From positions 26,110-90,109 of the forward strand of contig JAESPQ010000052.1 of assembly GCA_016765535.1 (NCBI GenBank): DNA of 64,000 nt, given 5' to 3'. Below are positions 6,714-53,065 of this stretch, piece by piece. Each line of letters opens with the position of its first letter. Position 1 is the first letter of the stretch. The notes beneath the pieces were generated by a model. It was not told where the DNA came from and did not search any database. It worked only from the letters and a program-made list of their open reading frames with translations. The translations under genes were made by a program, and so were the position numbers. Origin of the DNA: Alteromonadaceae bacterium (GTDB lineage Bacteria > Pseudomonadota > Gammaproteobacteria > Enterobacterales > Alteromonadaceae).

Positions 6714-7457
6714 TTGCTACTACATATGGAGATCACCGTAATGACACTTTCAGCAAACCCGATACAAGCTTGTATCGACACACTCGTATCGCCTGCTACT
6801 GCCTTTGCCACTATCAAAGAAAAAAAATCTTGGTCGTGGTTGCCATTTATTTTAGTGGTTGGCGCAACATTTTCACTATTTATGTATTTTTACCAAACAG
6901 TTGATTTTAATTGGATGATCGAACAAATGGCTGATGGTATGGCCGCTAGTGGTAAAAGTGAAGAGCAAGCAAAAGCATTTCAAGACAATATGACCCACAG
7001 CATGATGCAATGGAGTACCATTATCGGCGGTACTGTTGGCATAATAGTGATTAATTTACTGATGGCACTTTATTATTATTTAGCCACAAAAGTTGCTGCA
7101 AAAAATGATTATAAATTTACCGATTGGTACGGTTTTACTTGGTGGGTTTCATTACCAATTGTAGTTTCGGCCTTACTTTCTGCCTTGGTAATATTTTTTG
7201 CTGACAATGGTCAGATTTCACTGCACGATTTGCAACCCACTAGCTTAAATGGCTTACTATTCGGTCTTGATCAATCGAGCCATTGGTTTGCTTTTTTAGA
7301 AGGTATTAACCTTTTTAGTTTTTGGACGTTAGCAATTGCCACCATCGGCTTAAAAGCATGGTTAAACATAACCACTAATAAAGCCCTTTCGATTAGTGCT
7401 ACCCCCTTTATAGTTATTTATGGCAGTTGGGCGCTTTATATCGCCTTTTTAGCCTAA
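6714..7457 (+). CDS. Yip1 family membrane protein
   Basis: Multiple TMs and Yip1-like composition. Real start probably MTLSANPIQACID at 6741. Confidence 0.75.
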   Translation: MLLHMEITVMTLSANPIQACIDTLVSPATAFATIKEKKSWSWLPFILVVGATFSLFMYFYQTVDFNWMIEQMADGMAASGKSEEQAKAFQDNMTHSMMQWSTIIGGTVGIIVINLLMALYYYLATKVAAKNDYKFTDWYGFTWWVSLPIVVSALLSALVIFFADNGQISLHDLQPTSLNGLLFGLDQSSHWFAFLEGINLFSFWTLAIATIGLKAWLNITTNKALSISATPFIVIYGSWALYIAFLA

Positions 7458-7499
7458 ATTAAATTTATACACTAAGGAATTCTTTAAGGTGTTAATTCT

Positions 7500-33100: not shown

Positions 33101-33277
33101 GAATACTGCTGGCTTAGCATTATTTAAAGCATTTATCATTTCATCTACTAGTGGATAGTTTGATGGTGCTAACGGATCTCCTTTAAACTTTTGTCCATTC
33201 CAATGAAATGAAGCTGGTGTATGAATGTGAAGATCCCACTGTCTCCATTCAGACCCTTTAGGGTAATTACTGCTCAT
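30188..33277 (-). CDS. TrlF family protein: N-terminal PHP phosphoesterase-like domain plus ABC/SMC-like ATPase
   Basis: WDLHIHTPASFHW; Walker A GNKGSGKSAL; LSPGQRGALLLIFYLL, PIILDQPEENLDNE. Confidence 0.85.
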   Translation of the reverse strand: MSSNYPKGSEWRQWDLHIHTPASFHWNGQKFKGDPLAPSNYPLVDEMINALNNAKPAVFALMDYWTFGGWFALKNRLKQADAPKLKKTVFPGIELRLMAPMKGRLNAHVIFSDEIKDQDLRDFKSNLKIEFPGQDPKNLSDDALIQFARTVATDKLSHHSLDISKVNDFDEYALYAGSVMAELNCDSYKDAIKKVPNDQAIGFMPFDTYDGLTDIARNAHYSYTLGLFKTSPIFETRKQESWEAFAGVKTDKNIKWIDSFQETLKNIPRLAVSGSDAHQFVGVSGDNDKRGYGDYPSGKITWIKADPTFLGLKQAIKEPAKRSCIGAKPSKLEVYETNKSQFIEAIKIFKNAETKPDIGKWLDETSIVLNSDLVAIIGNKGSGKSALADIIALLGNSKQSHHFSFLKKDRFRGRNGEPAKHFDAELLWADSTKIPKNLALNPEGESVELVKYIPQGHFEELCNAHVSGKSNAFETELRSVIFSHADESIRLGALNFDQLIDIQENSVREKLTHVRTSLSKLNKEITENEAQQEPEIRSSILQKVTRKLHVIDEIKNTKPVEVLKPTEELSIEQKSFTTKLTELAEKLKAAVHAQTKNNDLITSFSLKLKACNNLREHLSLLKRNFTEFENIAETDAKTIGLSPNNLAQLTVSYDKLKEIENASTEQKLNLQNEQSKLGEQILALKEKQSKLSTQLNAPQQIHQQYLEDILAWETKVSNANGNKDEPESLLGLKARLEQLDKIPAKIAEQFEERRKLTLEIFDILDEQRASRELLFSPVQELIQNNSLIRNEYKLKFKSEMKCTPGYFSSQLFELIKQSSGEFRGEEESFNLIVSLMDINDINTKEGVEGFTSDLLLKLHGTSNDTASIKSIMRKNKEPYEVYDLIYSLSFLTPRYTLLFQDAHIEQLSPGQRGALLLIFYLLVDKGSMPIILDQPEENLDNETIVSLLVPVLCKAKESRQIIMVTHNPNLAVVCDAEQIIHCDFNRKNDSSITYTTGAIESRDINLKIVNVLEGTMPAFKNREQKYNKD

Positions 33278-33299: not shown

Positions 33300-35816
33300 T
33301 TATTCATACAAATACTTCTGACACCCAATAAAAGCATTGCTAATGATCGGTATCGAACCTAGTGTTTCAGCCGCATCGCTGATTGAGCCATACTTCAATT
33401 CCAACAATGATTTCATGTTGGTACGTGACAGTTGCGATACACCGTCTTTAATATAATGACTTAGAATGAAGTCGATAAACTCAAGCTGTTTATCATCAGT
33501 GAAAGTGTCGTGAATCGATGTACTAGCTCTCGTGACTCGTTCTTTACGCGACATAGCTTTGGAGGCGTAAGCAACAAAGGCCAATACGTCATAAACATCG
33601 CTATCTTTGGCATCAATGAGCGCTTTCATGTCCTCAAGTTTTTCGCTGTCGTAACCTAGATCATTAAGATTATGTAGTAATGTTTCTCGCGTTGTTGGGT
33701 CACTCCAAATAGCCCTAAGCTGTTCTTCGTTTTCAAAAAACTGCGGTAAATCATCAAACAGGTTTTGTAAGAATTCTTGAATCGGGATTGGTTTTCCTTC
33801 CGCGCTCCAGAACATTACTGATGAGATATGCTGGATTTGACGCGACTTACCATCGCTGAGTTTTATAATTACCTTTTCTTTGCAAGTGCATGGCAAGTTG
33901 CCGCAAACATCACATGGCTCCGGCTCACATATACAGGGGTTATTATCACATTTTAGGCAATTAGGGACTGGGCATGTGCATGGGCTGTCGCCACATTTTT
34001 CACAAGGCGGCTCAGGACAACAGCATGGGTTGAAGCCACACGTTTCACAAGGCTCTTTTGGACAACTGCATGGGTCATCATCACACACACTACAATGTTC
34101 TGGAGGGAGAGGTTCACCATCCCATTCTGGGTCAGAAAAGTTATAATGTGCTTTTACAAAATCATAGATAGTGAAATAGTCTTTACCGTCATATATCCGT
34201 GTACCACGACCGATAATTTGCTTAAATTCAATCATGTTATTACATTGGCGCATTAACACGATGTTTCTAACGTTACGGGCATCAACACCCGTCGATAATT
34301 TACGTGATGTCGTCAATATAGTAGGTATGGTTTTTTCGTTATCTTGGAATATCTTTAGATCTGTTTCACCCGCTTTACCATCATTAGCCGTTACGCGAAC
34401 ACAGTAATCAGTATTCGTGGTCCAGCCTTTTCTAACCGCATAAGTATTGATGTAATCACGAACAAAGCCTGCGTGTGCTTGAGTTGCGCAAAACACGATG
34501 GTTTTTTGTTGAGGATTCATCCTGTCCATCCAATACTCAACGCGTTTTTCTTCGCGCTTATCAATGGTTATTATGCGGTTAAAGTCGCCTTCTTTATAGA
34601 CTTTACCGGGTTCAGGATCGCCTTTAACCACAACACCATCGCCTGGAGTGTAGATATATTCATCCATGGTGCCAACGATAGGTAATACTTTAAATGGTGT
34701 TAAAAAACCATCATTAATGCCTTCTTTTAAGGTATAGCTATAAACCGGATCACCAAAATACTTGTAGGTATCGGCATTATCTTTACGCTTAGGTGTTGCT
34801 GTTAAACCTAGCTGTACCGCAGGAGAGAAGTATTCTAATACCGCTCTCCAACTGCTTTCATCTTTAGCTCCGCCTCGGTGACACTCATCAATCATAATGA
34901 AATCAAAAAAGTCTGCGGGATAATCACCAAAGTAAGGTGCATCGTCACCATTTTCATCTTTACCCGACATAAATGTTTGGAAAATAGTAAAGAACACGCT
35001 GCCGTTTTTAGGTACTCGACCTTTCTTTTTAATTTCACTTGGGTCGATACGAACAATGGCATCTTCATCAAAGGGAGAGAATGAGTTAAAGGCTTGGTCT
35101 GCCAATATGTTCCTGTCGGCTAAGAATAAAATACGCGGTCTACGTTTAGCTTGTCCGGGGGTTTTTCGTGCGCTTAAACTCCAACGGCTATGAAATAACT
35201 TCCAAGCGAGCTGAAAACCAATAAAGGTTTTACCTGTACCTGTTGCCAGTGTTAGTAAAACAGTCTGCTCGCCTTTTGCGATGGCTTCTAAAGCATTATT
35301 GATGGCATTTTCTTGATAGTAACGAGCGTTCCAACTGCCACCTTTGGTTTCATAAGGCACATCAGCAAAGCGTTGTCGCCAACCTGTAGCAAAGTCGGGT
35401 TCTTGTGCATCAAAAGTTAAAGCCCATAACTCTTGTGGTGACATAAACTTATCAACCAAACTAGCTTCGCCTGTTTTCATGTCTATCTGATAAATTTCAT
35501 GACCATTTGTTGCATAAGCGATGCGGCACTGTAATCTAGTAGCATAATCTTTAGCTTGGCGAACACCCTCGGTATAACTTAATTCTTCTTTTTTGGCCTC
35601 AACAGCGGCAAGCTTTTTACCTTGATAAACTAAAACATAATCACTGGTAACACTATCACCGCGTTTGCCGCCTGTAAGAATTCGACCAGGGCAAATGACC
35701 TCACGACGAATAAAGCTATTCTCTAATTTACTCCAGCCAACGCTGTGTAGCTTGGGATCAATTAAATCTGCTCGTGTATCAGCTTCGTTTTTATATCCTT
35801 TATTACTTGAGGCCAC
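33300..35816 (-). CDS. hsdR: Type I restriction endonuclease subunit R (EcoEI-like) with Cys-rich repeats
   Basis: Helicase motifs TGTGKT, DECHRGG, TATPKR; EcoEI_R_C-like tail; five CxxCxxxPCxC repeats. Confidence 0.92.
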   Translation of the reverse strand: MASSNKGYKNEADTRADLIDPKLHSVGWSKLENSFIRREVICPGRILTGGKRGDSVTSDYVLVYQGKKLAAVEAKKEELSYTEGVRQAKDYATRLQCRIAYATNGHEIYQIDMKTGEASLVDKFMSPQELWALTFDAQEPDFATGWRQRFADVPYETKGGSWNARYYQENAINNALEAIAKGEQTVLLTLATGTGKTFIGFQLAWKLFHSRWSLSARKTPGQAKRRPRILFLADRNILADQAFNSFSPFDEDAIVRIDPSEIKKKGRVPKNGSVFFTIFQTFMSGKDENGDDAPYFGDYPADFFDFIMIDECHRGGAKDESSWRAVLEYFSPAVQLGLTATPKRKDNADTYKYFGDPVYSYTLKEGINDGFLTPFKVLPIVGTMDEYIYTPGDGVVVKGDPEPGKVYKEGDFNRIITIDKREEKRVEYWMDRMNPQQKTIVFCATQAHAGFVRDYINTYAVRKGWTTNTDYCVRVTANDGKAGETDLKIFQDNEKTIPTILTTSRKLSTGVDARNVRNIVLMRQCNNMIEFKQIIGRGTRIYDGKDYFTIYDFVKAHYNFSDPEWDGEPLPPEHCSVCDDDPCSCPKEPCETCGFNPCCCPEPPCEKCGDSPCTCPVPNCLKCDNNPCICEPEPCDVCGNLPCTCKEKVIIKLSDGKSRQIQHISSVMFWSAEGKPIPIQEFLQNLFDDLPQFFENEEQLRAIWSDPTTRETLLHNLNDLGYDSEKLEDMKALIDAKDSDVYDVLAFVAYASKAMSRKERVTRASTSIHDTFTDDKQLEFIDFILSHYIKDGVSQLSRTNMKSLLELKYGSISDAAETLGSIPIISNAFIGCQKYLYE

Positions 35817-35834
35817 TAATAATTTCCTTATTTA

Positions 35835-37058
35835 TTATGCGAGTTCACCGTTAAAGGCTTTTTGTAAGATAGATTGTTTTAGCTCATCTAGAGCTTGTAT
35901 TTTCTTTATATAAACATTTTGAAGCTCAATACTTTTAGATTCGATACCAGCTAACTCATCCAGGAACTCATTTTGTTTTTTTATGGTATCAGGGTAAGTA
36001 ATTATAAAATTTTGTAGTTGAACTTTAGTTATAGCTTCACGAGTCGCACCTGAACCACCAACTTCAAGTAAAATATTTTTGTAATATATTGATGTGAGGA
36101 GAAAACATAAAAAACGAGGGGAAATAATATCTTTATTCACTCTAATAATCGATACATGCTGATTCACTCTTGCTGGTAAATATTCACTAGGGACAACGCA
36201 ACACCTTGCTACCGATGCTCCTGTTATATTCAGAAGAACATCATCTTTCTCTATTGTTACATTATTTAATTTTGCAGCCTGATCATCATCAATTAATGCT
36301 AAATTTTTTTCTTTAAATCTTCTATCATGAACATTCATACTACGAATTAATGACATACCCTGTTCTTTGTATGCAGCTTTACCACCTCTTGGAGTAGCGC
36401 CACTACCGATTTTTGATGTTATTTCTTGAAGGCTACTTTCAGCCCAACCTTCTTGACTATGACTAAAAATTCCTTGTAAATAACTTTCAAATAACGCCTT
36501 CGCATTTACTAAGTTCTGTTTAGCATTAAATTTCGCTTTTTCAATATCAGCAAAGGTTTGCACTAGTTTGACTACAATTGATTTTTGGATTTCAGGTGAA
36601 GGTGTTGGAACTTTAATCTCTTTTAGTACTTTAACTGATGCCATATTTTTAATAGCTACACCTTGAGATAATGCTTTAATTTGCTCTTGAAAATTCCGAC
36701 TTTCCATCCAAAATTTTAAAAAAGTAGGAAGTAATTTATCCTTTGGGGTAATTTTCAATAAAGCTTGGTTAATAACCCCCCTAGGTATTCCTGCTGGTAC
36801 TATCGCGATTTTTCCCATGGTTCCAGAACAACTCATGATTAAGTCATCTGGAAATAGCTCAAAGCGTCTCATTTCATCAAATTTATTTTGGTCTACAAAA
36901 TAGCGAATACTTGAAAATTGGTCATTTATCGCATGTTGCTGCTCGTAAACTGCATACCCTTCATCTTTAAAGATTGATTTTTTTAGGCTACCTCCAAAAG
37001 GCCCCCTAACAAAATTACAAACTTCACCAAACCTTTTTTGTGGCCAGTTCTTAATCAT
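35835..37058 (-). CDS. hsdS: Type I R-M specificity subunit S
   Basis: 407 aa; two target-recognition domains; 4-nt overlap with hsdM. Confidence 0.92.
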   Translation of the reverse strand: MIKNWPQKRFGEVCNFVRGPFGGSLKKSIFKDEGYAVYEQQHAINDQFSSIRYFVDQNKFDEMRRFELFPDDLIMSCSGTMGKIAIVPAGIPRGVINQALLKITPKDKLLPTFLKFWMESRNFQEQIKALSQGVAIKNMASVKVLKEIKVPTPSPEIQKSIVVKLVQTFADIEKAKFNAKQNLVNAKALFESYLQGIFSHSQEGWAESSLQEITSKIGSGATPRGGKAAYKEQGMSLIRSMNVHDRRFKEKNLALIDDDQAAKLNNVTIEKDDVLLNITGASVARCCVVPSEYLPARVNQHVSIIRVNKDIISPRFLCFLLTSIYYKNILLEVGGSGATREAITKVQLQNFIITYPDTIKKQNEFLDELAGIESKSIELQNVYIKKIQALDELKQSILQKAFNGELA

Positions 37059-38518
37059 AAAAGACCCTTAATGCTCTCTAGAATATTTTTACTTTCTTCA
37101 TCAAGGTTTATGATTTCAGCTATAATCACAGTTGGATCACGTAATGGCATTTCCTCTTCAACATTAGGATTTTTAACGCTTAAATCAAATGAGGCATCCA
37201 GACTGTCAACTTTAACAGCCCAAGATTTACCTGAATCAGCAAATGATTTTTGCAGCTCAACGAACTCTTTTAGATCTTTATCATTAAGCGGAGTAGTTTT
37301 ACCCATTTTGCGACCTGGATCTAATTCATAAAACCAAGTGTTTTGAGTAGATGAACCTTTTTCAAAAAATAAAACTACCGTTTTAACACCTGCACCAATG
37401 AATGTACCAGCAGGACAGTCAAGTACTGTATGTAAATTACAGTTTTCTAATAACTCTTTACGCAAGGCAACAGCAGCTTTTTCCGTATTAGATAAAAAAG
37501 TATTTTTGATAACAATAGCAGCACGGCCACCCGGTTTAAGTGATTTAATAAAGTGCTGTAAGAATAGAAAAGCCGTTTCACCTGTTTTGATGGTAAAGTT
37601 TTGCTGTATTTCTTTACGCTCCTTTCCTCCGAACGGTGGATTTGCAAGAATAATGCTATATTTATCAGATGGTTGCATGTCTGACAAATCTTGAGCTAAC
37701 GTATTGGTGTGAATTACGTTAGGTGCTTCAATACCGTGTAAGATCATATTCATGATTGCAATTACATAAGCGAGGGACTTTTTCTCTTTCGCGTAAAAAG
37801 TATCTTCTTGTAATATTTTCAGTTCATTAGGTGATACTGGCTTTTTATCTGCACCACCTTTCCGCAAATAATCAAAGGCTTCACACAAGAAGCCAGCAGA
37901 GCCTGCTGCTCCGTCATAGATAGTTTCACCTATCTTTGGCTGTATAACGTCGATCATGGCTCGTATGAGTGGTCGTGGGGTATAGTACTCACCACCATTA
38001 CGGCCAGCGTTACCCATATTCTTAATTTTTGATTCATAAAGATGAGAAAGTTCATGCTTTTCAGTTTGTGAACGAAAACTTAGTTCATCCACTTTTTCTA
38101 GACAATCTCTCAGTGAATAACCACTTTGGATCTTGTTTTTTATCTCACCAAAAATTTCACCAATTTTGTATTCAATGGTGTTTGGGCTTTCAGCTCTTTG
38201 CTTGAACCCTTTTAAATACGGGAATAATTCGGTATCGACATAATCCATTAAGTCATCACCCGTTAGGGCATTGTTGTGATCAAACTCGCCTTTCGCGTCT
38301 TTAGGTGCAGCCCACTTTGTCCAGCGATGTTCTTGGTCGATTATATATTTGTATTCTTTACCTAGAAGCTCAGCGTTAAGTGACTTCTCATGCTCTAGAT
38401 CATCAAGGTATTTTAGGAATAACATCCACGATGTTTGTTCGGTGTAATCTAACTCGCTGCTACAACCAGCATCTTTATGGAGAGTATCGTCGATGTTCTT
38501 AAACGTTTGTTCAAACAT
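37055..38518 (-). CDS. hsdM: Type I R-M methyltransferase subunit M
   Basis: GEYYTPRPLIRAMID, DGAAGSAGFL, NPPFGG. Confidence 0.95.
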   Translation of the reverse strand: MFEQTFKNIDDTLHKDAGCSSELDYTEQTSWMLFLKYLDDLEHEKSLNAELLGKEYKYIIDQEHRWTKWAAPKDAKGEFDHNNALTGDDLMDYVDTELFPYLKGFKQRAESPNTIEYKIGEIFGEIKNKIQSGYSLRDCLEKVDELSFRSQTEKHELSHLYESKIKNMGNAGRNGGEYYTPRPLIRAMIDVIQPKIGETIYDGAAGSAGFLCEAFDYLRKGGADKKPVSPNELKILQEDTFYAKEKKSLAYVIAIMNMILHGIEAPNVIHTNTLAQDLSDMQPSDKYSIILANPPFGGKERKEIQQNFTIKTGETAFLFLQHFIKSLKPGGRAAIVIKNTFLSNTEKAAVALRKELLENCNLHTVLDCPAGTFIGAGVKTVVLFFEKGSSTQNTWFYELDPGRKMGKTTPLNDKDLKEFVELQKSFADSGKSWAVKVDSLDASFDLSVKNPNVEEEMPLRDPTVIIAEIINLDEESKNILESIKGLL

Positions 38519-40039: not shown

Positions 40040-40387
40040 ATGGAAAGAATTTATTTAGATGATGCAGTTTTGATATCTGTATTAGACAGCATAAGTGGTG
40101 AAAAACAATGTAATGCTAAATTTCTTGCAGGCAAAGTTATTCATGACAAAATGAATCGATTTCGGGTTGGAAAATCACTAATAACAGTAGAGCTTGAATT
40201 ATGTGGCGAAGATGTTTTTTTAACTAAAGACGGAGATTTATTTGAAACTGATAATTCTCCTTGCATTACGGAAGTATCATGCGCTGAATTTTTGCTAATG
40301 AGAATAAACTCTTTCAAATTAACTCAAATTTTGGCTATGCGCCAAAATACAAACAAAGCAAAGCTGATTTCTGCTTTTGATGATTAG
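40040..40387 (+). CDS. Hypothetical protein (paralogue of 40396-40734)
   Basis: 115 aa; operon position; shared LxDAxxxSxxD and EFxxMR...ILxMRQ patterns. Confidence 0.65.
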   Translation: MERIYLDDAVLISVLDSISGEKQCNAKFLAGKVIHDKMNRFRVGKSLITVELELCGEDVFLTKDGDLFETDNSPCITEVSCAEFLLMRINSFKLTQILAMRQNTNKAKLISAFDD

Positions 40388-40395
40388 CATGCATT

Positions 40396-40734
40396 ATGAA
40401 AACATTTTTAAAAGACGCAGCAATTGTATCAATTTTTGATTTTCAAAAAGATGAAAAAAAATTACTAGGCAGGATTATTTTTGGCATAGTTATCAAAGAT
40501 GAAACAAAAAGGTATTTACCTGAATTTCGAGTTATTACTTCAACAATTAAATCACAAAAAAACTTTGAATTTATTACAAAAAGTGGAAACTGTTATGTGA
40601 TCAATGATGCACCTGGTCAATTAGATATAACGTTTGTTGAATTTGTCGTCATGCGACATCGCTTATCTTCACCATCTGAAATTTTAGAAATGCGACAAAC
40701 ATTAAAATTAACTGATGATCGCACTATACATTGA
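40396..40734 (+). CDS. Hypothetical protein (paralogue of 40040-40387)
   Basis: 112 aa; see neighbouring paralogue. Confidence 0.65.
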   Translation: MKTFLKDAAIVSIFDFQKDEKKLLGRIIFGIVIKDETKRYLPEFRVITSTIKSQKNFEFITKSGNCYVINDAPGQLDITFVEFVVMRHRLSSPSEILEMRQTLKLTDDRTIH

Positions 40735-41153
40735 GTGATGATGAAATGAAAATTAATAATCAAAAAGCGCAAATAACTTCAATAGATCATCTCAATAAAA
40801 GTTTTGAAGTCAAAAAGTTCGAATTTCAATTAGATTTTACATTAACTTTAAATAGTGAGAATGATGCTGATGTACTGCCGATGCCAAGTGGAAAACTTGG
40901 AAATTATCTAGAGGTTGGCGATCTTATTGAATTCAAAATGAAACAACAAAGTTATGAAATGTTTAATTTGAGTTGTGAATTTTTAAGGCTTTCGAAATTT
41001 AAACGCGATCTGATTTCAGTATTAAGACGATTAGATAATGATAATCATCCTTTGAAACGATGTGTTTTGTTGAATGAAAAAGGTTTTGTTTTGCTTTCAG
41101 CTAAAAAGAACGCTGATAAAGTCCGTTTGATAACTGAAACTACACGAAATTAA
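40731..41153 (+). CDS. Hypothetical protein
   Basis: 140 aa; overlaps upstream gene by 4 nt. ATG at 40746 (MKINNQKAQ) also possible. Confidence 0.6.
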   Translation: MSDDEMKINNQKAQITSIDHLNKSFEVKKFEFQLDFTLTLNSENDADVLPMPSGKLGNYLEVGDLIEFKMKQQSYEMFNLSCEFLRLSKFKRDLISVLRRLDNDNHPLKRCVLLNEKGFVLLSAKKNADKVRLITETTRN

Positions 41154-42326: not shown

Positions 42327-42761
42327 ATGAATAATTCTATAGCACGACAAATAGCTGGGCTTTTAAACGCTGAAAATCAACTTGTGGTTGGTTATACGGA
42401 AGAGAAGGTGCTATCTGCATCGGATAATTATGTTTATGAAGCAGTTGATGGTGTAATTAAAGCATTCATCGAGTGTAAAAAAGTACAGTGGTATCAATAC
42501 GAAGTATGCCACTTAACGGTAGCACCAGATTTTAGAGGGCAAGGGTTAGGTGAAGTCGTAATAAATAAAGCTTTATCTTATGCTGCATCTTTGGGTGCTA
42601 GGATTGTTCAATGTACTATTCGTGATGATAACGGAGCAAGTAAAGGACTTTTTGCTAAGTGTAGCTTTGCACAAACCTCTACCTTTTATTATCCAAATAG
42701 CGGTAATAATGTCGGTGTTTGGCAAAAGGTGGTTAGTGTAGCCACCTATCAAGCAAATTAA
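42327..42761 (+). CDS. GNAT family N-acetyltransferase
   Basis: CHLTVAPDFRGQGLGEVVINKALSYAASLGARIVQCTIRDDNGASKGLFAKCSF. Confidence 0.92.
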   Translation: MNNSIARQIAGLLNAENQLVVGYTEEKVLSASDNYVYEAVDGVIKAFIECKKVQWYQYEVCHLTVAPDFRGQGLGEVVINKALSYAASLGARIVQCTIRDDNGASKGLFAKCSFAQTSTFYYPNSGNNVGVWQKVVSVATYQAN

Positions 42762-42870: not shown

Positions 42871-44133
42871 ATGGATAAAAAAGTAAAAGGTGCTTGGTTA
42901 ATTCACCATACTAATAAATTACAAAATATAACCAATCAAGGAAGCTATCAAAATACTTTTGTTGCAGGTAAAGCTGGGATTCTCTTGTCAGCAATTTCAG
43001 AAACAAATCAAAGTGTCCTTACAAATGAAAAGTTACATGTACTAGCTAATGCATCAAATATAAATACTGCTTTTGAACTTCCCAAGCTAATTGATGTTTT
43101 AAAAGATCAGGAATTGGTTGATGTAACTAACTCAGGTATTGGTGTTCTTGGTGTGACAACATCTTCCGCTCTCCAGCATACATCCAATATTTTCGAATCT
43201 CTTGAGCCAGAAAACTTAGAAGTTGCAGCTATTGAACTAGCTGAGATAGCTTCAATTAAGCCTGTTAGCAGTTCAGAGATATCAGAAAAATTATCTGATG
43301 AACATAAAATGGATAAAAATGAAGTAACCCAGTTATTTCATGATTCTGAAAATATAGGTTTTGTAGATGCCGAATATATTAGCAAAAATGAGAAGTTGCT
43401 ATTTAATGGTAACCTCTTTCGTCGTGATTCGGCAGTTAAAACGAAAGCAGTTTTAGATTCCCTTACTGTTGCAGAACAGGCTTCATTAACTGAGTTAACC
43501 CAACGATTGAAGAAAAATGCTTGTGTAGCATATTCTGATGCGCTTCGCATACTAGGAGATAATCTTTTTAAAAAAGTAAACTCCATCGGTTTTTTTGATA
43601 TAAATGTGGTTAGTAATAGTCAAGAAGAAGTTGGATTCTTAACGCTACCGTCAGCATTTTCAAAATATAGTAACTCTATGGTTGAAGATGCATTTGATTT
43701 GGCCAAGGCATTTGTCGCTTCATTAACTTATGGGATGACTAAAAGCACATATGCTCGTGGTCAAATTAGCATGATTGATCGACTATTAGCGGCCCTGATT
43801 GATGGTCGAGAAGTCGGCCCTGTAAGTGCGATTGGTCAAGATTACAAAATGCTTGAACTGAAAGGTGTAGTATCCATCAGGCACGGAGAAAAAGGTGGGC
43901 GAACCGGGCCATTAATGAGATTGTTAAAAAAGGAAGTTGGTGAACTTGCACTTCAAGCAATCAGGGAAGGAGATGTTAGTGAGCAATCTATTCAATCTTT
44001 ACCCGGTGCCGCTATCACTAAATTTAGAGGGCCAGAGGCTAATCGAGAGATAATTCGACGCGAACAAATACAAAAAAGTCCATTTGAAACCAATGATATG
44101 ATTAGTGCGTTAAGAACAGGAGGCCGATTCTAA
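42871..44133 (+). CDS. Hypothetical 420-aa protein, first gene of a two-gene operon
   Basis: Long ORF with good codon usage; helical, winged-helix-like segments; 1-nt overlap with next gene. Confidence 0.7.
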   Translation: MDKKVKGAWLIHHTNKLQNITNQGSYQNTFVAGKAGILLSAISETNQSVLTNEKLHVLANASNINTAFELPKLIDVLKDQELVDVTNSGIGVLGVTTSSALQHTSNIFESLEPENLEVAAIELAEIASIKPVSSSEISEKLSDEHKMDKNEVTQLFHDSENIGFVDAEYISKNEKLLFNGNLFRRDSAVKTKAVLDSLTVAEQASLTELTQRLKKNACVAYSDALRILGDNLFKKVNSIGFFDINVVSNSQEEVGFLTLPSAFSKYSNSMVEDAFDLAKAFVASLTYGMTKSTYARGQISMIDRLLAALIDGREVGPVSAIGQDYKMLELKGVVSIRHGEKGGRTGPLMRLLKKEVGELALQAIREGDVSEQSIQSLPGAAITKFRGPEANREIIRREQIQKSPFETNDMISALRTGGRF

Positions 44134-45182
44134 TGGTAAAAAAACTATCCAAGGGCTTTGAAATGGAAGAGCAACTTAGAAACTACTTTATTCAATCCGG
44201 CTATTTCGTTGTTCGTGGAGTACCGTTTGTATATGAAGGTTTTGATGTTACTGACATCGATTTATGGTTATATAGCCGAGAGTCCTCACTCACTAGAAAT
44301 ATAACGATTGTAGATATAAAAAATAAAAAAACACCTCAAACAATTGAGAGAATTTTTTGGGCAAAAGGATTGGCCAAAGCAGTTAGTGCCAATAATGTTA
44401 TCGTAGCTACGACTGATAGAAGAAAAGAAGTTAAGAAGTTTGGTTTAGATTTAGATGTATTAGTTTTAGATGGGGTATTTCTTTCAAAGCTAGCAAAATC
44501 TGAAGGTTTTTTAGCGCAAAGATTGTCTGATGAGGAATTCTTTGATGAGATTGATAGCTATTCTTTAGGTAAAATTGATGGGGATTGGAAAGGACAAATT
44601 GTTAAGTGCAAGAGTTTGTTAGCAAAAGAGATTGATTTTGATGCATGTAATCAGTGGCTTGATTCTTCTAGATTTTTTGCAGAGCAAATATTGACCAAAC
44701 CTAGTCAGCTTAATGTTGCCCTTAGGTGCTTTTACTATTCACTGATGTTATTTTCAATTGGCGTTGATTACATACTTAAAGAATTATCGTTTTTGGAGCC
44801 TGAAGAAAGAGTTAGCAAGCTTGTCGAAGGGTTCACTTATGGCGCTAAAGGCTTCGAGGGAATAACTAAAATGCTATCGCTTTCTTTGTCTTTAGTAGAA
44901 CAGTTTGCGCCAGAGGGAAAAGCACTTTCATCTCAAGTTCGCACAAAAGTCATGTCCGATTTTGAATCACTGCCAACCAATATTATTGGAGAATATTTTG
45001 CAAAAGCCGATGTTGGAAAAACTATTTTCACTTCAGCTAAAGAACTTGAAAGCTTGGCAATGAACCGTTCGTTTAGAAACCATTCAGATTCTTCTTTTGA
45101 GTTACGAGGTCTCATTGGTTGTCTTCTAGATTGCTGGGAAATTAATCGAAAGGAATTTAGAACGGCCATAGATGCCTCATAA
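44133..45182 (+). CDS. Hypothetical protein with PD-(D/E)XK nuclease-like N-terminus
   Basis: FVYEGFDVTDIDLWLYSR...ITIVDIKNKKTPQTIERIFWAKGLAKAVSANNVIVATTD resembles the D...(D/E)xK core. Confidence 0.65.
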   Translation: MVKKLSKGFEMEEQLRNYFIQSGYFVVRGVPFVYEGFDVTDIDLWLYSRESSLTRNITIVDIKNKKTPQTIERIFWAKGLAKAVSANNVIVATTDRRKEVKKFGLDLDVLVLDGVFLSKLAKSEGFLAQRLSDEEFFDEIDSYSLGKIDGDWKGQIVKCKSLLAKEIDFDACNQWLDSSRFFAEQILTKPSQLNVALRCFYYSLMLFSIGVDYILKELSFLEPEERVSKLVEGFTYGAKGFEGITKMLSLSLSLVEQFAPEGKALSSQVRTKVMSDFESLPTNIIGEYFAKADVGKTIFTSAKELESLAMNRSFRNHSDSSFELRGLIGCLLDCWEINRKEFRTAIDAS

Positions 45183-45624: not shown

Positions 45625-46374
45625 TTAACGGTATTCTCTCAATACCATCATTGTTTTAAAGGTAATAATTAAATCACTTTCTGAAATGTCACATTTTTGG
45701 CAAATATCATCTAAGTCAGAATTTTCGTTTGATGATGTACCTTTCAATAAATATTCTATTATTTCATGCTTTCCAGTTAAAATATCGGCTTTAGGTGCGG
45801 ATAGACAGTTAAATTCTTTATTGTTCTTAATATTACAATTATTCGCATAATATTTAGTCATACTTGCTGGCACATGGCCTAGGAGCTTTGACAAATTCGC
45901 ATAATCACTTCCACTAGAAAAACTTTCTTTAAAAGCTTGGACTGTATAAAACGCTCTCAACGAGTTGATAGAAATTGGTAAAGAAGTGCTATTACTTGCT
46001 GTTTTGAATGTTTTGGTCACAACTTGTCTCGATATGCTAGATGCAGGTTTGTTTTTTTGGTTCTTACTTTTTCTCGATTGAAATACAAAAACATCTTTAG
46101 GATATTTATCTTTTAACTTTCTAAGTGTCTCCATGCATTCATCATTTACAATAATGCTTATTTTATTATGAGTTGATGATCTCAATTTCTCAACAGTTAT
46201 TGAGCTAGATTTAAAGTCTACATCTGAAAATTTTAAATTCAATATTTCACTAGTTCTTAACCCTGTATTAATGATAATTGTAAAAAAATCTACCGTTTGT
46301 GAACTACCTGCTTCCATTAAAGCAGATTTAAAATTCTGAAAATCTTTAAACGTTAATTCTTTTTTATCTTTCAC
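45625..46374 (-). CDS. Tyrosine recombinase-like protein, catalytic domain only
   Basis: 249 aa; INTGLRTSEILNLKFSDVDF, INSLRAFYT, LLGHVPASMTKYYANN. Confidence 0.75.
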   Translation of the reverse strand: MKDKKELTFKDFQNFKSALMEAGSSQTVDFFTIIINTGLRTSEILNLKFSDVDFKSSSITVEKLRSSTHNKISIIVNDECMETLRKLKDKYPKDVFVFQSRKSKNQKNKPASSISRQVVTKTFKTASNSTSLPISINSLRAFYTVQAFKESFSSGSDYANLSKLLGHVPASMTKYYANNCNIKNNKEFNCLSAPKADILTGKHEIIEYLLKGTSSNENSDLDDICQKCDISESDLIITFKTMMVLREYR

Positions 46375-46560
46375 TATTATCTCCTAACACAAGAGTAACT
46401 TGTCAAAATGTATATCATGACAAGTTTAACTGGCATTAATATAAACACAAGATAAAATTGGTATTTATTTTTACATATTAAGCTATGAAAGTTAAATTTT
46501 GATGTTGTTAGGTATGTGGAGGGCAGTCAATTCTATTAAGATCTAAAGTCAGGTATAACA

Positions 46561-46720
46561 ACACTTCAAATATTAGAAATCACCTTTAATCTGGGTGTGA
46601 TGATCGAAAATCAGTCTAACTACACTTCAAGTATTATAAATCAGCTTTAATTCTGGTATAGCGATCAAAAATAAGGTAAATATCTGCCGAAAAATTATAA
46701 GTCAACTTAAAATATATTAC
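46561..46720. repeat. Degenerate ~61-bp direct repeats (two clear copies, one weaker)
   Basis: ACACTTCAAATATTAGAAATCACCTTTAATCTGGG (46561) / ACACTTCAAGTATTATAAATCAGCTTTAATTCTGG (46622). Confidence 0.65.
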
Positions 46721-47082
46721 TGGCAAAAAATAACAATGTGCCTAACATAAAACCGCAATGAATTATTACCCATAAATAGTGAATTTATATTTATTGTACT
46801 TATGTGTATAATCTTAAAGGAATTGGTAATTACATTGTTTTTCAATCAGTTATAAGTCTTGGTTTGTTTGCGTTAGCACTATAAATCACTTTTATTTATT
46901 TCTATATTTTACATCAACTTATAAGCAATCACAGTTTAAGCTCACTGACATCGTTATATTAAACACGATACCGCTCTTTTACTGGGTCGCTATGTTAATT
47001 TTATTGCTTTCAAATTTATTTTATTGATAATAGCAAAAATAGAGTGATGAATACTTATTCACAGCCATGATCAGCCTATTTA

Positions 47083-47505
47083 TCAAATAGGAGAGTTTTT
47101 CATATTTATTACTTTTCCAGATTCATACTTTTCGACTAACTTTTCAAGCTCACGAATTCTTGCAACTAACTTTAAATTATCTTGCATCAAGGTATAAAGT
47201 AGAGATTCTGCCTTATCCTTATCATCTGTAGCTTTTTTTACTTTTTTCTGTGTCCGCTGTAGCTCTGTTGCTGCTGATGTACTACTAAGTGCATGTTCTC
47301 TTTTATAGTCATTAATTTCACCAACCAAACGGCTTTGCCATAGCCTAGTTTTTTTTAAATAACCTTTATCAAAGCCTGCTTCAACACTAACTGTTGAACA
47401 CGAAATCTCCGATTTTTCAATAACCTTTATTAAACCATTGCCAACTTTAAGCCTTTCAAATGCATTTATACACTTTTCTAAACCATCACCTTGTTGATTG
47501 TTCAT
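47083..47505 (-). CDS. Small protein at the end of the recombinase operon (Tn554 TnpC-like / GMT small-component candidate)
   Basis: 140 aa; N-terminal HTH-like then coiled coil; 4-nt overlap with upstream recombinase. Confidence 0.6.
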   Translation of the reverse strand: MNNQQGDGLEKCINAFERLKVGNGLIKVIEKSEISCSTVSVEAGFDKGYLKKTRLWQSRLVGEINDYKREHALSSTSAATELQRTQKKVKKATDDKDKAESLLYTLMQDNLKLVARIRELEKLVEKYESGKVINMKNSPI

Positions 47506-49568
47506 GCTGGTTCCTCATCTTTGCTTTTCATTGAGTATTTTTTATATTTAACTAACGCATCGTAGTCAATTATTGTTATTTGATACTCTGCTGAATCTTT
47601 TGCATATTCTGCTAGCTCCTCTTTTATTCGATCAATTGCTTTATCAACTTTATTCGGGTTAATAATTCCTCCTTTACAACCTAAACACGATGTAAAATCC
47701 CCTAGCATTTCATCTTCGCATGCACCAACTTTTATACACCCTCCCAACAGTGTATCCCGATATGAAAGCTCTCCTTTTGCAACACGCTTTTCTGTTTCTT
47801 TTCGCACTTCTTGTATTAATATTTCATTATCTTTAAGCTGCTCTTTTTGACGTTCGATATACCTACCAGTTTTGCCATAAATATGATTATCAGCCCCTAG
47901 GACATCTATTAATATTTGATTTGCAACATTACCAGGAATGCCAAGCTGGTACTCAAAAATCATATGATCATCCGGTAATATATATTCACCTTTTTCCTTG
48001 TCAAAATATCCAAAGATCGTTTTTATTTGTTCAAAATTACGTCGATAATATCTCGCCATTTCAAGACTTAAATGCTTAAATTGTGCTTTTAATGTTGGTA
48101 GCGATACAAAACCACTATTACTTGCGTAAAAAGCTAAAGAACGACGAAACTGATGTGAAGCCAAAGGCCACGAATTACCAACTTGAAACTTTTTATCTGA
48201 AAGGAAATCACGATCTTCATCACTAGCACGTAAATCAATTAAATCTATACCCGTAATAGTTAATAAGCTTAACCAGTGAGGTGAATGTTTACTTGTATTA
48301 AAGTTGGTTACCTCAGGTTTACCATCCATTAAAGTACGCAGCTCAGAAGTGCTGACGAGTAGGGGTATAGTTTCATAGGCAACATTATAAAACCCTGCCA
48401 TTCCTCTCGCTATGCGTTGTAATATTTTAATTGCTTTCAGAACACACTTTGGGGCATACCAAGAGGCACTTTCCTTATACCCTGTAAATTTTGTTGTCGT
48501 TGAAAGTAATTCAACTGCTAGAGCTTCATCAACAATTTTGCCCTTTTCATCTACCGTTGCTTCGGTGATAGTCTCTGTATACACGCATTCGTATGGAAGT
48601 CGATTAACCTCCTGATGTCTCATCCCGGTATATAAATGAATAACCTGCTTGGCAATGAATTGAATTTTACTCAAAGCTAAAGTGAGGTTGTTTTTTTTGG
48701 TAACTTTATAATTGTCCTTTAATAATTTAGACAATCCATGGCTCACAATTGCCTGAGACATAGTTTCTCGGTAATACTTTCTTCCCCCAACAGCCAATCC
48801 TTTTTGCCGACCATGCGACACGCCATAATATCGGTCCTTAAACTTGGGAAGCATTTCCTCAAGTCCATCAGAATTCTCATAGATGAAATCTATATCGTTT
48901 TCCAAATTATTCATGAGCGACATATAAATTCTTTGAGGAATAATAACCGTTTGTTGTGAGTCAGTTTCGTTTAAATCAACATCTTCCCTGTTTACCACAG
49001 TAAAACCTATAATTTTTTCGCCCAGAAAATTAAAGTCGTTAATAATGGCAGACATACGTTTATTAAAAGTTATGCCTTTTTTATTTCTTACAAAAGCAGC
49101 TAAGAATGGTTTATTTGTGAAAAGGTGTTTTAACGTTAAATTACCATGGGTTGTCAATTCTAAATCTAGACAAAAACGTGCTGCTTGGCGCAATACTGTA
49201 AAATAACTAAACATTACACTCGAACTACGTGTGCCCGTATATCCAGATTCACAAAAATACATCATGCAAAATAAAAGATATTTGAGTTCTATTATTATTG
49301 CTCTTTCAGCAGCAGGGTTCTTTCCTAAAAGTAATTTTGAAAAATGCCACTTTGTTAATTTCGTGGCAGATAATCGATAAGGGTTATAATCCCAAGTATC
49401 TTCTTTAAAAATAGCAGTAGACATCCCCTCTAAATCTCTACAAAGCACAAAATCATCCGGAACTTCTATTTTATTTCCTTCAGAGTAATTAAATACATCA
49501 GGTATCGTTCCATATTCAACCAAGTCTTCATCAAAAGAATGATTATATGCTTTTATCTCTTCATTCAT
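47502..49568 (-). CDS. Large tyrosine recombinase-like protein, third of trio
   Basis: HLYTGMRHQEVNRLP, ASHQFRRSLAFYAS, FKHLSLEMARYYRRN. Start at 49568 gives an ATGA overlap; track start is 49613. Confidence 0.85.
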   Translation of the reverse strand: MNEEIKAYNHSFDEDLVEYGTIPDVFNYSEGNKIEVPDDFVLCRDLEGMSTAIFKEDTWDYNPYRLSATKLTKWHFSKLLLGKNPAAERAIIIELKYLLFCMMYFCESGYTGTRSSSVMFSYFTVLRQAARFCLDLELTTHGNLTLKHLFTNKPFLAAFVRNKKGITFNKRMSAIINDFNFLGEKIIGFTVVNREDVDLNETDSQQTVIIPQRIYMSLMNNLENDIDFIYENSDGLEEMLPKFKDRYYGVSHGRQKGLAVGGRKYYRETMSQAIVSHGLSKLLKDNYKVTKKNNLTLALSKIQFIAKQVIHLYTGMRHQEVNRLPYECVYTETITEATVDEKGKIVDEALAVELLSTTTKFTGYKESASWYAPKCVLKAIKILQRIARGMAGFYNVAYETIPLLVSTSELRTLMDGKPEVTNFNTSKHSPHWLSLLTITGIDLIDLRASDEDRDFLSDKKFQVGNSWPLASHQFRRSLAFYASNSGFVSLPTLKAQFKHLSLEMARYYRRNFEQIKTIFGYFDKEKGEYILPDDHMIFEYQLGIPGNVANQILIDVLGADNHIYGKTGRYIERQKEQLKDNEILIQEVRKETEKRVAKGELSYRDTLLGGCIKVGACEDEMLGDFTSCLGCKGGIINPNKVDKAIDRIKEELAEYAKDSAEYQITIIDYDALVKYKKYSMKSKDEEPA

Positions 49569-51508
49569 AAAACTACCCCCATATCTTCGTACAATGACAA
49601 ACGTTTTTCCCAAAAAACGGTTAAGATACCTAGTTCTAAAACTCTCTTTTCCATTTTTTCTACCAACTTCAATAATTCATCACTTTTAGCTTTCATGCTA
49701 TCGAGAATAAAACGTATGCGAATTGAAAGCTCTTTAAACAAACTGTCCGCTTGACTGAAATCAATAGCAAACTTACGAACTTCAGTAAGTACGTAAAGCA
49801 GGCTCAATAGTTTATGAATATCTTCCTCATCAGCATGACAAGTGTAGTTTTCGCAATACAAACAGCCATATTGAGTCTTACAATTTGGCTCAATAGGTAC
49901 TTTATCTTGAACGGGTGAGGGGTTATCATCGTCTTCACAATGACCAACAGGAATTGATTTGTCATTATCATTATCTACAAACTTTATTTTAATTTGTTTT
50001 CGTGATTTATGCATTGCTTGCCAATATAATTCTAATTCTTTAATTTGCCTATCTGGTGTAGTCTCCATGTAATCACGAGAATTAGTCTCAATAGAATGTC
50101 CAAGTAAACTTGCAGCTATTTCCTGATCTTCTCTTAACTCATTCAATAACAAATTTTTATATTTACGTGCGGCTCTTGCAGGAATATTTTTTATATTTTT
50201 ATTAACATATTTTCCTTCTTTAAGCCGCTTAATAAACCTATTACAATCACTACGCCTTAGTTGGGTATAGGTGTCATTATATTTTCCTGAGTCACCTTTT
50301 TTAGAACAAATGAAAAAAAGATACTTCTGTTCTACTCCATTTAAAACCCAATCCCTGAGTTCAAGATACTCTTTAAATAAGCTATACCCATATTGGTCAC
50401 CTAGTGAGTAAACAACTGTTTTACCACCAGCACGAAACTTAACCGCACGATAATCATTTTTAAATAAGTCTTTATCTGCCCTGTATCCCTCATCAAATTG
50501 AAGTTGACGTATTTCACTAGGGTATATACCTGTCAAAATAATGAATAGCTGCATATATGCTTGCATAGCAAGTGTTGCATACTTCATACGTTGCTCATGC
50601 CTTGAATCTATATTTACTTCTTCTAATTTACCCAGAGCATTTTTAACAGCACGACTTGCACACGATATAGACATGGTGGCTTTAGATGAAAGTTGATACT
50701 CTTTAATCGTAGAGATTCTTCCATCCACAGCGTTATAAATTGGTCCGCAAGATGATGAATAAGGCGTGTTTTTATTTCGACCATTAGACGGAAAAACATA
50801 CGTTTCATAATCAGGCATTTTAAGCTTAAATGGAAAAGTATTACTTGATATAACAAATTCTTTAAATTGTTTAGCAATGGCTAAAGCTGTTTTCACCATA
50901 TAGCTAACTTGATTATCTTTCGGTGGCTTTGATGGAATACGTTTGGCTTTTATTTTAGTAATCCCAACATAAATTTGGCTAGTTTTTCCTGCACCAAAAT
51001 AAATATCAAACATTTTTTCCATTGATAATTGTAAGCTATTACAAGTTTCAGGTTTTACTTTTCCACCACTTACTTTAATTTGATGTTTTAATTCACTTAC
51101 ATATCCAACGTATGCTTTTCTTGCTGAGTCCATTGAATCAAATAAATTTTCATAACTATTACCATCACACCAATTTATTATTTTTTTAAACTGATTAATG
51201 TCATATAGGATGGTCGAGTGCTCTCTGCAACCGATAAAAAAATGATCATACAAATTACGTAAGAATTCACACCTAGACTTCTTGAGTGATTTAAGCTCCA
51301 CAAAGTAAGGTCGCTTAGCCTGAGATGTATTAGAATAAACTTGTTCACGCTTCGAAAATGCCAAAGAGCCAATATCATAAGGGTTTACACGAACAGAACT
51401 ATCTAGCTGAACCCTTGCATTCTCAGGGTAAAGTAGCTCTTGATCTAGCTCTGCTGGAGTTAGAATAAATGTCTCCCTTAAAATCATGTTTTCTTCATGT
51501 GGATACAC
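49565..51508 (-). CDS. Tyrosine recombinase-like protein, second of trio, with substituted catalytic residues
   Basis: ILTGIYPSEIRQLQ (Arg to Tyr), PARAARKYKNLL (His to Arg), LLGHSIETNSRDYMETTP. Confidence 0.8.
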   Translation of the reverse strand: MYPHEENMILRETFILTPAELDQELLYPENARVQLDSSVRVNPYDIGSLAFSKREQVYSNTSQAKRPYFVELKSLKKSRCEFLRNLYDHFFIGCREHSTILYDINQFKKIINWCDGNSYENLFDSMDSARKAYVGYVSELKHQIKVSGGKVKPETCNSLQLSMEKMFDIYFGAGKTSQIYVGITKIKAKRIPSKPPKDNQVSYMVKTALAIAKQFKEFVISSNTFPFKLKMPDYETYVFPSNGRNKNTPYSSSCGPIYNAVDGRISTIKEYQLSSKATMSISCASRAVKNALGKLEEVNIDSRHEQRMKYATLAMQAYMQLFIILTGIYPSEIRQLQFDEGYRADKDLFKNDYRAVKFRAGGKTVVYSLGDQYGYSLFKEYLELRDWVLNGVEQKYLFFICSKKGDSGKYNDTYTQLRRSDCNRFIKRLKEGKYVNKNIKNIPARAARKYKNLLLNELREDQEIAASLLGHSIETNSRDYMETTPDRQIKELELYWQAMHKSRKQIKIKFVDNDNDKSIPVGHCEDDDNPSPVQDKVPIEPNCKTQYGCLYCENYTCHADEEDIHKLLSLLYVLTEVRKFAIDFSQADSLFKELSIRIRFILDSMKAKSDELLKLVEKMEKRVLELGILTVFWEKRLSLYEDMGVVL

Positions 51509-53003
51509 TTTGTTTTTTCTCCGTATTTATTCTCTTTAAATCATTCTCATAGCCTTTGAAAATATGAGATTCATATAATTCTTGAGCACGCTTTTTATCA
51601 TTGATATTTTCAAACAGCTTTAGATAGTTTTCAGTAATGCTTGAACGACTATGGTGCATTCTTTTTTGTACTTTTCTAATGATTTCTGAGTGACTAATTA
51701 TCTTGCCATTCTTGTCTTCATATTTTTTTACGAGATGAAGATAGTATACGAATGCAAATGTTGCTCTAAGCCAATGAAATGTAATGTCCTTCGGGAATTT
51801 TTTTGAAGTAAATGTTAAAAGTTTTTCAGTAAAAAGCCTAGTTCGCTGTCCTTTAGGTCTTGACCGTACACGCACAAAACGAGGATCATCTTTTGCCATA
51901 TAATGACAATTATTTTCCGTTGATAAGAATAGATAAACATCATTATCATGCATTTTTTCTAAATCTGGGAATTCATCAGCAAACTTTTGCTGAAATTCTT
52001 TACGCCTAGCCTTGGCAGTTCTGCTTTTCGAATAAACAATAAGATCATCAGCTAACTCCTTTTCAACAAACAACTTTTGAGGTTTATCATATTTAGTATC
52101 GGCCCCATTTTTAGAACTTACTCTAAGTTCATAAGTATTGTCTGATAATAAAAATTTAGGTTCAAAAAATGCTAGGTGCTTCATTCTTAATGTGAAGATA
52201 GTTTGCTTACGTGCCCCTGTATAAAGAGCGAATAAGCTAAAAAGGCGCTCATCAACACTGAATTCGTCTTTACTAATTTCTCTTAAAAACTCATCTCTTT
52301 GAGTCAGTGTCAGTGGCCTTAAATCTTCACCTTCATCTCTAACATATCCAACCTCAACAGGGATAGGTTCATGACTAACAGGCTTAGTTTGACCACGTTT
52401 TGTAACTTTTTTTGAACCTCTCCCGGTAGCTGTTTCAAAGGATATTCTAATATCTTTCACTGTATCAACACGATCAATATCGATATAAGAGTCACTTTGC
52501 TCAGATAGCCATTTAATAAAATAATAGACGGCTGAAGTCTTCATGTTTAGGGTTTCTGGACCAATCTCCACTTCCGATGATAAATAGGCATAATATTTAT
52601 ATGTCGGTCTATGGCTGGGCCTCCTGCCAGAAAAGTCGTCAAATTCAATTTCTTTATCTTCACAAAATAATTTGTAATCCAACAGTTTCGAAGCTTTATC
52701 TCGGATAAGATCTGTTGCCTCAGCTAATTTGGTCGAATTGATTGCCATCTCAAAGAGATATGTATTTGCTTCATGCCATGGTTTTCCATCATGATTCAAT
52801 AAAAAAGGGAAATTGTAGACACTATCATCAGGAGCAATTCTTTTGTCTTCAGGGATGACATGGTATTTATATGATCGGACATTATGCTCAACATAATGTT
52901 CATAAGAATTATTAGTTTCACCAGTAGTAGTTATGAAAGCTGTAGCATCAAAAATACGTGGTATGTTAATTAAGCGGATATCTTTACGAGGGTCTCTTTT
53001 CAT
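51495..53003 (-). CDS. Tyrosine recombinase-like protein, first of trio
   Basis: ALYTGARKQTIFTLRMKHL, FHWLRATFAFVYY, MHHSRSSITENYLKL. Confidence 0.85.
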   Translation of the reverse strand: MKRDPRKDIRLINIPRIFDATAFITTTGETNNSYEHYVEHNVRSYKYHVIPEDKRIAPDDSVYNFPFLLNHDGKPWHEANTYLFEMAINSTKLAEATDLIRDKASKLLDYKLFCEDKEIEFDDFSGRRPSHRPTYKYYAYLSSEVEIGPETLNMKTSAVYYFIKWLSEQSDSYIDIDRVDTVKDIRISFETATGRGSKKVTKRGQTKPVSHEPIPVEVGYVRDEGEDLRPLTLTQRDEFLREISKDEFSVDERLFSLFALYTGARKQTIFTLRMKHLAFFEPKFLLSDNTYELRVSSKNGADTKYDKPQKLFVEKELADDLIVYSKSRTAKARRKEFQQKFADEFPDLEKMHDNDVYLFLSTENNCHYMAKDDPRFVRVRSRPKGQRTRLFTEKLLTFTSKKFPKDITFHWLRATFAFVYYLHLVKKYEDKNGKIISHSEIIRKVQKRMHHSRSSITENYLKLFENINDKKRAQELYESHIFKGYENDLKRINTEKKQSVST

Positions 53004-53027: not shown

Positions 53028-53065
53028 GTGTCAACGATACATTGATACACCTACCCGTGTCAACA
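53028..53065 (-). repeat. Right-end copies of the GTGTCAAC motif (inverse of left-end GTTGACAC)
   Basis: GTGTCAAC at 53028-53035 and GTGTCAACA at 53057-53065. Confidence 0.8.

Follow-up and report, generated by a model that had tools for sequence, protein, structure and literature searches.

The window analysed here, a stretch of 64,000 nucleotides from an Alteromonadaceae bacterium, contains two adjacent open reading frames on the forward strand. ORF A (42871–44133, +), the first gene of the pair, starts with ATG and encodes a predicted tandem winged-helix protein of 420 amino acids. ORF B (44133–45182, +) also possesses an ATG start and encodes a protein of 349 amino acids, for which a PD-(D/E)XK nuclease followed by a novel helical C-terminal domain was predicted. 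Both frames have one base in common at position 44133 and hence overlap by 1 nt, exactly as the original prediction had described them. Homologues with 28–88% identity occur in many genera with both frames open. Thus, A and B are real genes and not chance ORFs. The pair is present as a single copy in the genome from which the window originates. Its GC content of 0.363 corresponds to that of the window (0.361), and consequently there is no compositional sign of a recent import. Scanning for promoters and terminators around the pair revealed no more sites than were obtained in shuffles.

The surroundings of the pair combine defence genes with mobility genes. A type I restriction-modification operon encoding HsdR-like, HsdS and HsdM proteins (33300–38518, −) was detected with PADLOC. 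It is adjoined by the gene of a 1029-aa SMC/AAA_21-like ATPase (30188–33277, −) which PADLOC matches to part of Ppl and to mads_3 and which is possibly a further defence gene embedded in this operon. On the other side of the pair the tyrosine recombinase genes of the island are located (45625–53003, −), of which those at 45625–46374 and 51495–53003 were assigned by Pfam. Two long ORFs of 703 and 647 aa without a Pfam match (47502–51508, −) adjoin the tyrosine recombinase and, judged by position and size only, look like the remaining members of a three-recombinase set. Directly upstream of A a GNAT acetyltransferase gene (42327–42761, +) was found which is not conserved with the pair at other loci. 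Three small ORFs at 40040–41153 (+) belong to no confident family; by eye, the first two of them (115 and 112 aa) resemble diverged copies of one another.

The structure of protein B was predicted using AlphaFold2 (pLDDT 91.2, pTM 0.90). The model consists of a nuclease core with alpha-beta-beta-beta-alpha-beta topology (residues 7–112; 44151–44468, +; pLDDT about 89–97) and an all-helical C-terminal domain (residues 133–347; 44529–45173, +). In the core, helices comprise residues 7–21 and 67–83 and strands residues 24–34, 37–49, 55–63 and 88–93. A Foldseek search of the PDB matched the core to five solved PD-(D/E)XK enzymes, namely MspJI, Card1, EndoMS/NucS, AspBHI and BamHI. These matches cover the core only; several of them reached a probability of 1.00, at modest E-values with a best value of 0.006. 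For the helical C-terminal domain Foldseek revealed no match in the PDB or BFVD. When the BFVD was searched with B, mainly the nuclease core was matched and no viral protein with the C-terminal domain of B was retrieved.

The core carries a putative catalytic motif T40-D41-I42-D43 (44250–44261, +) and a (D/E)-x-K motif D61-I-K63-N-K-K (44313–44330, +). The residues E12, T40-D41-x-D43, D61-x-K63-N-K-K and E72-R73-x-x-W76 are invariant in 17 aligned B homologues with 28–85% identity. D41 and D43 are conserved throughout the clade to which the window pair belongs (clade 1) as well as at the equivalent positions of a second, distant clade, and in both clades only D or E occupies position 61 and only K position 63. 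The acidic and lysine residues stay the same at 31 clade-1 loci, the sole exception being an E in place of D61 in the Streptomyces copy L020, a substitution compatible with the (D/E)XK motif. In clade 2 the elements D-x-D, (D/E)-x-K and RxxWxxG are kept in 9 out of 9 sequences. B displays two hallmarks of the PD-(D/E)XK superfamily, the predicted core fold and an acidic residue followed by (D/E)-x-K. The motifs DVTDIDLWLY, ITIVDIKNKK and VIVATTD on which a restriction-endonuclease-like protein had been proposed are all present in B, as is RTGPLMRLLKKEVGELALQAI at the C-terminus of A. The proposal agrees well with the modelled core and its conserved active-site residues, and the C-terminal domain, which had been called unknown, indeed has no relative in the PDB or BFVD. 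Predicted fold and conserved active site together provide strong evidence that B would be an active nuclease, DNA cleavage being what such a model and such residues predict.

Neither protein could be assigned to a known family, as had been anticipated for A, and no match to a known defence or regulatory family above the cut-off was found for either. No model of Pfam, NCBIfam, PADLOC or PHROGs scored above the cut-off for A or B, and none of the A and B proteins tested from the two clades was matched by PADLOC-DB 2.0.0. Sequence profiles searched against PDB chains yielded nothing for B and two weak HTH rows for A. The model Mrr_cat (PF04471) did not match the B protein of the window. One B homologue was matched by it over the whole core, with an E-value of 0.024 and 15.2 bits versus a gathering cut-off of 21. 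This likeness to Mrr-like enzymes is below the threshold; both B clades have in common a helix with RxxWxxG which follows (D/E)-x-K.

The core of B has the fold of MspJI and AspBHI (Foldseek probability 1.00 and 0.98, respectively), both of which are modification-dependent enzymes. The pair might accordingly be viewed as a two-part modification-dependent (type IV-like) restriction system in which B would cut and modified bases would be read by A or by the C-terminal domain of B. However, the match with the best E-value of 0.006 covers only the common nuclease core, and other PD-(D/E)XK enzymes follow close behind. Unlike MspJI and AspBHI, to which homology is undetectable at the sequence level, B possesses a helical C-terminal domain without relatives and a partner protein A, and no known modified-base reader domain was found in A or B. 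Inspection of the neighbourhoods revealed no methyltransferase that is constantly near the pair, which would suit a type IV-like enzyme. For the same reason a type II restriction-modification system with a missing methyltransferase was rejected. Some copies of the pair lie beside or inside restriction-modification operons, as reported for the two-gene type IV system TgvAB (PMC11411939). TgvAB and GrwAB (PMC11411939, PMC12137116) consist of two genes which are both needed, have no methyltransferase of their own and are located within or beside restriction-modification clusters. The A/B pair resembles them in being composed of two genes without an own methyltransferase, with some copies within or beside such clusters. 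In contrast, TgvAB and GrwAB are GmrSD-like DUF262/DUF1524 proteins, and neither domain was matched in A or B by Pfam. On balance, we regard a type IV-like system as rather unlikely.

The AlphaFold2 model of protein A is of low overall confidence (pLDDT 72.6, pTM 0.45). It contains four units, each built from three helices followed by a two-strand wing (H-H-H-E-E), in line with the repeated winged-helix segments noticed in the original prediction. Winged helix 1 comprises residues 24–94 (42940–43152, +; pLDDT about 77–93) and the acidic winged helix 2 residues 112–180 (43204–43410, +). These two units are confident. Winged helix 3 (residues 196–260; 43456–43650, +) was modelled with moderate confidence and the slightly basic winged helix 4 (residues 266–352; 43666–43926, +), which contains an invariant R296-G297 in the homologue alignment, with low to moderate confidence. 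The repetition of units typical for tandem winged-helix proteins is thus predicted for A, with moderate confidence only for units 3 and 4, and the relative placement of the four units is uncertain in the model. With Foldseek, A was matched best to RPC62, a tandem winged-helix subunit of RNA polymerase III (E = 1.8e-5), and to similar proteins with several wings. The uncertain arrangement of the wings keeps the TM-scores low (0.19). Only the fold is common to A and RPC62 or other tandem winged-helix proteins; A has no sequence relation to RPC62, is bacterial and is the partner of a nuclease. At the sequence level, DUF7339 (PF24028) matched one winged-helix-sized stretch of A, winged helix 1, below its cut-off (18.7 bits versus 27, E = 0.0019), and an unrelated NCBIfam model reached 20.4 bits versus a cut-off of 459.

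The median net charge of units 1–3 over the homologues is −2, −8 and −3, respectively, and that of unit 4 is +2. The third helices of units 1–3 exhibit median net charges of −1, −1 and 0. By net charge, A lacks the basic recognition helix or wing of DNA-binding winged-helix regulators. The idea that A is a DNA-binding regulator was therefore dropped as unsupported, units 1–3 being neutral to acidic. The mostly neutral or acidic winged helices do not support direct DNA recognition by A, whose role as a DNA sensor is hypothetical. Judged by the charge pattern, A is no less likely to be a protein-binding scaffold than to read DNA.

The original prediction had proposed genome neighbourhoods as a check for conserved pairing, and A and B homologues were indeed found to co-occur, with defence-like settings among the loci. 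A search led by B in 85,462 species genomes revealed 16 loci, and A was located directly upstream in all of them, including partial A genes at three loci. At L008 A is cut by the contig end, at L013 only the last 100 residues of A remain (7516–7974) and at L016 a stop interrupts A (6715–7977); at the two latter loci the B frame is open. These broken A genes represent either decay or B acting without A, and B may consequently sometimes persist without a full A. Conversely, in searches led by A in viral contigs and sampled genomes B adjoined A at every match, and searches with the profile of the second-clade A (A2) found only proteins followed by B. In 399 sampled genomes of the phylum A was present in six, and a full B in the same six. 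The pair is sparse overall (2 to 6 of about 400 sampled genomes). Matches H1–H4 and H6–H9 on Vibrio parahaemolyticus plasmids were left out of the loci analysed, as the remaining ones were sufficient. A tblastn search of phage records with A and B gave no match; proviruses of IMG/VR carry the pair.

Of 31 complete pairs, 25 show an overlap of 1 or 4 nt between A and B, and all spacings lie between −35 and +9 nt. Over the 31 loci the pairwise distances of A and B are correlated with r = 0.97, a value reached in none of 2000 permutations, and the nearest neighbours agree between both proteins in 17 loci. This correlation is inflated by shared ancestry, yet it indicates that the two genes are inherited together. 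The identities of A and B in three comparisons were 88/85, 53/50 and 38/32%, respectively.

The B search of the sampled genomes detected a weak B in a seventh genome (E = 4e-5), the first base of which is overlapped by a 439-aa ORF. This hit led to clade 2. Relatives of its B protein were found on plasmids of Komagataeibacter, Roseomonas, Burkholderia, Priestia (Bacillota), Streptomyces and Mycolicibacterium, and the Rubrobacter B as query led to plasmid relatives in Pseudarthrobacter and Streptomyces. All of these plasmid genes are immediately preceded by an ORF of about 390 to 450 aa. Profile-profile comparison linked the B proteins of both clades with a probability of 98.1% (E = 6.7e-14) and the A proteins collinearly over 333 columns with 94.7% (E = 6e-8). 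Since single-sequence comparison of the A proteins is weak (5%), the link between them rests on profile and position. A viral scan with the clade-2 A profile gave no match. When Sulfurimonas (Campylobacterota, L007) and Rubrobacter (Actinomycetota, L018–L019) are counted in, both clades together span at least four phyla. The pairing was found in both search directions, on plasmids and in the distant clade 2.

In P2-like proviruses (L038–L042) the pair is inserted between gpS and gpV in the direction opposite to the structural genes. In a sister phage, Yersinia phage vB_YenM_201.16, the site is empty and the two genes are about 70 bp apart; in another, vB_YenM_56.17, it is occupied by a retron reverse transcriptase and a regulator, and in an E. 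coli phage by a different gene. P2-like phages are known to harbour antiviral genes in small variable sites, although the one described previously (PMC9122126) is a different site, located between gpA and gpQ. In Photobacterium (L009, 1613–12439) the pair lies within a type I-F CAST between the tniQ-cas8/5-cas7-cas6 block and tnsC-tnsB. In Sulfurimonas it has hsdM-hsdS on one side and a DUF3732 ABC gene on the other, and hsdR follows at a greater distance. A Mu-like provirus (L035) carries it directly before a CAP12/PCTIR TIR effector gene. The pair adjoins ThiF-type E1 and multiubiquitin genes in Mycolicibacterium (L057) and an Mrr nuclease and an RNaseH-domain protein in Streptomyces (L059), and in Mesorhizobium (L021) N6 and Eco57I methylase genes are nearby. 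No defence neighbour was observed at L010, L012 and L016, where solitary copies are surrounded by housekeeping genes or lie on plasmids. When 69 neighbours were scanned with PADLOC, without background control, methylases, specificity subunits, LmuB, Cas I-F and candidate defence proteins were detected. In three separate settings (L007, 9120–16823; L061, 12017–14603; L063, 1–2053) the pair has ABC three-component (Lamassu II-like) genes nearby, a co-occurrence which may exceed chance.

Using the provirus copies as DNA queries, matches in E. coli were obtained. The pair is present in 22 of 5,426 complete E. coli genomes in two forms. The first is located at tRNA-Pro beside an integrase gene, an ABC three-component system (ABC-3C) and a relaxase gene; the second adjoins Hxs genes and, in NCTC9040, has ABC/DUF3732 genes close by. 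The encoded proteins are annotated as 'hypothetical protein' and are about 60% identical to those of the window; WP_023142848/WP_023142847 and WP_000377565/WP_000723546 are protein records of E. coli pairs. Both forms have a 2.76-kb block in common which contains only A and B, flanked by about 390 bp on the upstream and 65 bp on the downstream side; their surroundings otherwise differ, apart from a diverged relaxase gene further on. Between the two forms dN/dS amounts to 0.015 for A and 0.039 for B. From the shared block and these values we conclude that the module comprises just two genes which are mobilized together, both proteins being subject to strong purifying selection. A search of the E. 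coli cassette with Rfam found no known RNA.

Another possible explanation is a DNA-processing pair which serves the mobile elements themselves in transfer, target choice or replication rather than in defence. In this direction point the relaxase and integrase genes of the E. coli islands, the position between tniQ and tnsC of the Photobacterium CAST and the arrangement on the Roseomonas plasmid pOT10-2 (L053, 2661–4001), where the A gene and the end of the mobF relaxase gene have 20 nt in common and the pair may consequently be expressed with the transfer genes. However, P2-like and Mu-like phages, CAST, RepABC plasmids and tyrosine-recombinase islands represent unrelated mobility machineries, and at some spots such machinery is absent (L010). 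Thus, no single machinery can need the pair, and a service function is quite improbable.

The tight gene arrangement has to be considered also with respect to toxin-antitoxin or addiction modules. Here, A would be a large antitoxin or repressor which is made first, and B a nuclease toxin which attacks the host DNA upon loss of the element or stress. Type II toxin-antitoxin operons have a similar gene order and overlap, plasmids and islands commonly carry the pair, and binding of a protein would be in keeping with the acidic wings of A. However, modules of this kind usually consist of far smaller genes. A is conserved at least as well as B and is under stronger purifying selection, in which it differs from typical antitoxins, and the prophage moron sites and the CAST position fit defence cargo better. 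We consider a toxin-antitoxin module unlikely. It overlaps with a defence function, since partner-held abortive-infection nucleases look alike; indeed, the toxin-antitoxin, type IV-like and element-service explanations are all partly nested in defence.

The settings favour such a defence function. The P2-like moron site, the CAST, the type I restriction operon and the ABC-3C, TIR, E1, Mrr and methylase neighbours form a defence-like context. From context and conservation, A and B probably constitute a new two-gene nuclease system, still a candidate, against phages or other mobile DNA. Some sort of defence against mobile elements is quite likely. For the division of labour, A controlling B and B cutting upon infection, the balance is moderately favourable. 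In our model a so far unnamed mobile defence module would be formed by both proteins as obligate subunits. B would be a metal-dependent DNA endonuclease of the PD-(D/E)XK superfamily, DNA being its presumed substrate, and A a four-winged-helix scaffold co-translated with B which most likely binds B and keeps it inactive. After recognition of an invading phage or plasmid, A would release or direct B. Since no methyltransferase travels with the pair, self-protection would have to be achieved by the control through A or by recognition of something that is absent from the host genome, be it a modification, an intermediate of replication or a protein of the phage. In this respect the pair would resemble type IV or Hachiman-type 'sensor plus nuclease' systems and not classical restriction-modification. 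More doubtful is a so far unrecognised, phylum-crossing class of two-component immune nucleases in which A, resembling RPC62 more than a DNA reader, senses infection by protein contacts, for example with the transcription or replication machinery, and thereby unleashes B.

In Hachiman the PD-(D/E)XK nuclease HamA is held by the helicase partner HamB which senses the invader (PMC12278908). The two-gene logic of nuclease and partner is the same, and 8zue_A is a distant Foldseek row of B. In contrast, A contains no helicase or NTPase domain, and the PADLOC profiles of HamA and HamB match neither protein. PD-(D/E)XK nucleases are also contained in 13 validated E. coli systems of DefensePredictor (PMC13092281), which have these nucleases and the E. 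coli host range in common with the A/B pair. The main text of that publication names no winged-helix/nuclease pair; as the supplementary tables lie outside this comparison, the pair could be among the validated systems. A search of the open-access literature found no description of a two-gene defence system composed of a winged-helix protein and a nuclease. The PD-(D/E)XK superfamily and the sensor-effector logic are already known, and the candidate novelty is the A/B pair itself. If our interpretation is true, a widespread defence system has escaped notice, being sparse, often located outside classic islands and without a named domain. A itself is unusual as well, since control of a restriction-type enzyme by a four-winged-helix protein and without an NTPase would be of a new kind. 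The E. coli copies make the pair directly testable in K-12 with standard phages.

A further observation concerns the borders of the island in the window. It is flanked by two genes for HrpB-family helicases (27326–29833 and 53060–55672, both −), the products of which are 36% identical. The former adjoins a bifunctional penicillin-binding protein gene (24566–26980) and the latter directly adjoins the tyrosine recombinase gene at 51495–53003. The island may use the HrpB spot as a target or may have brought in the second HrpB copy.
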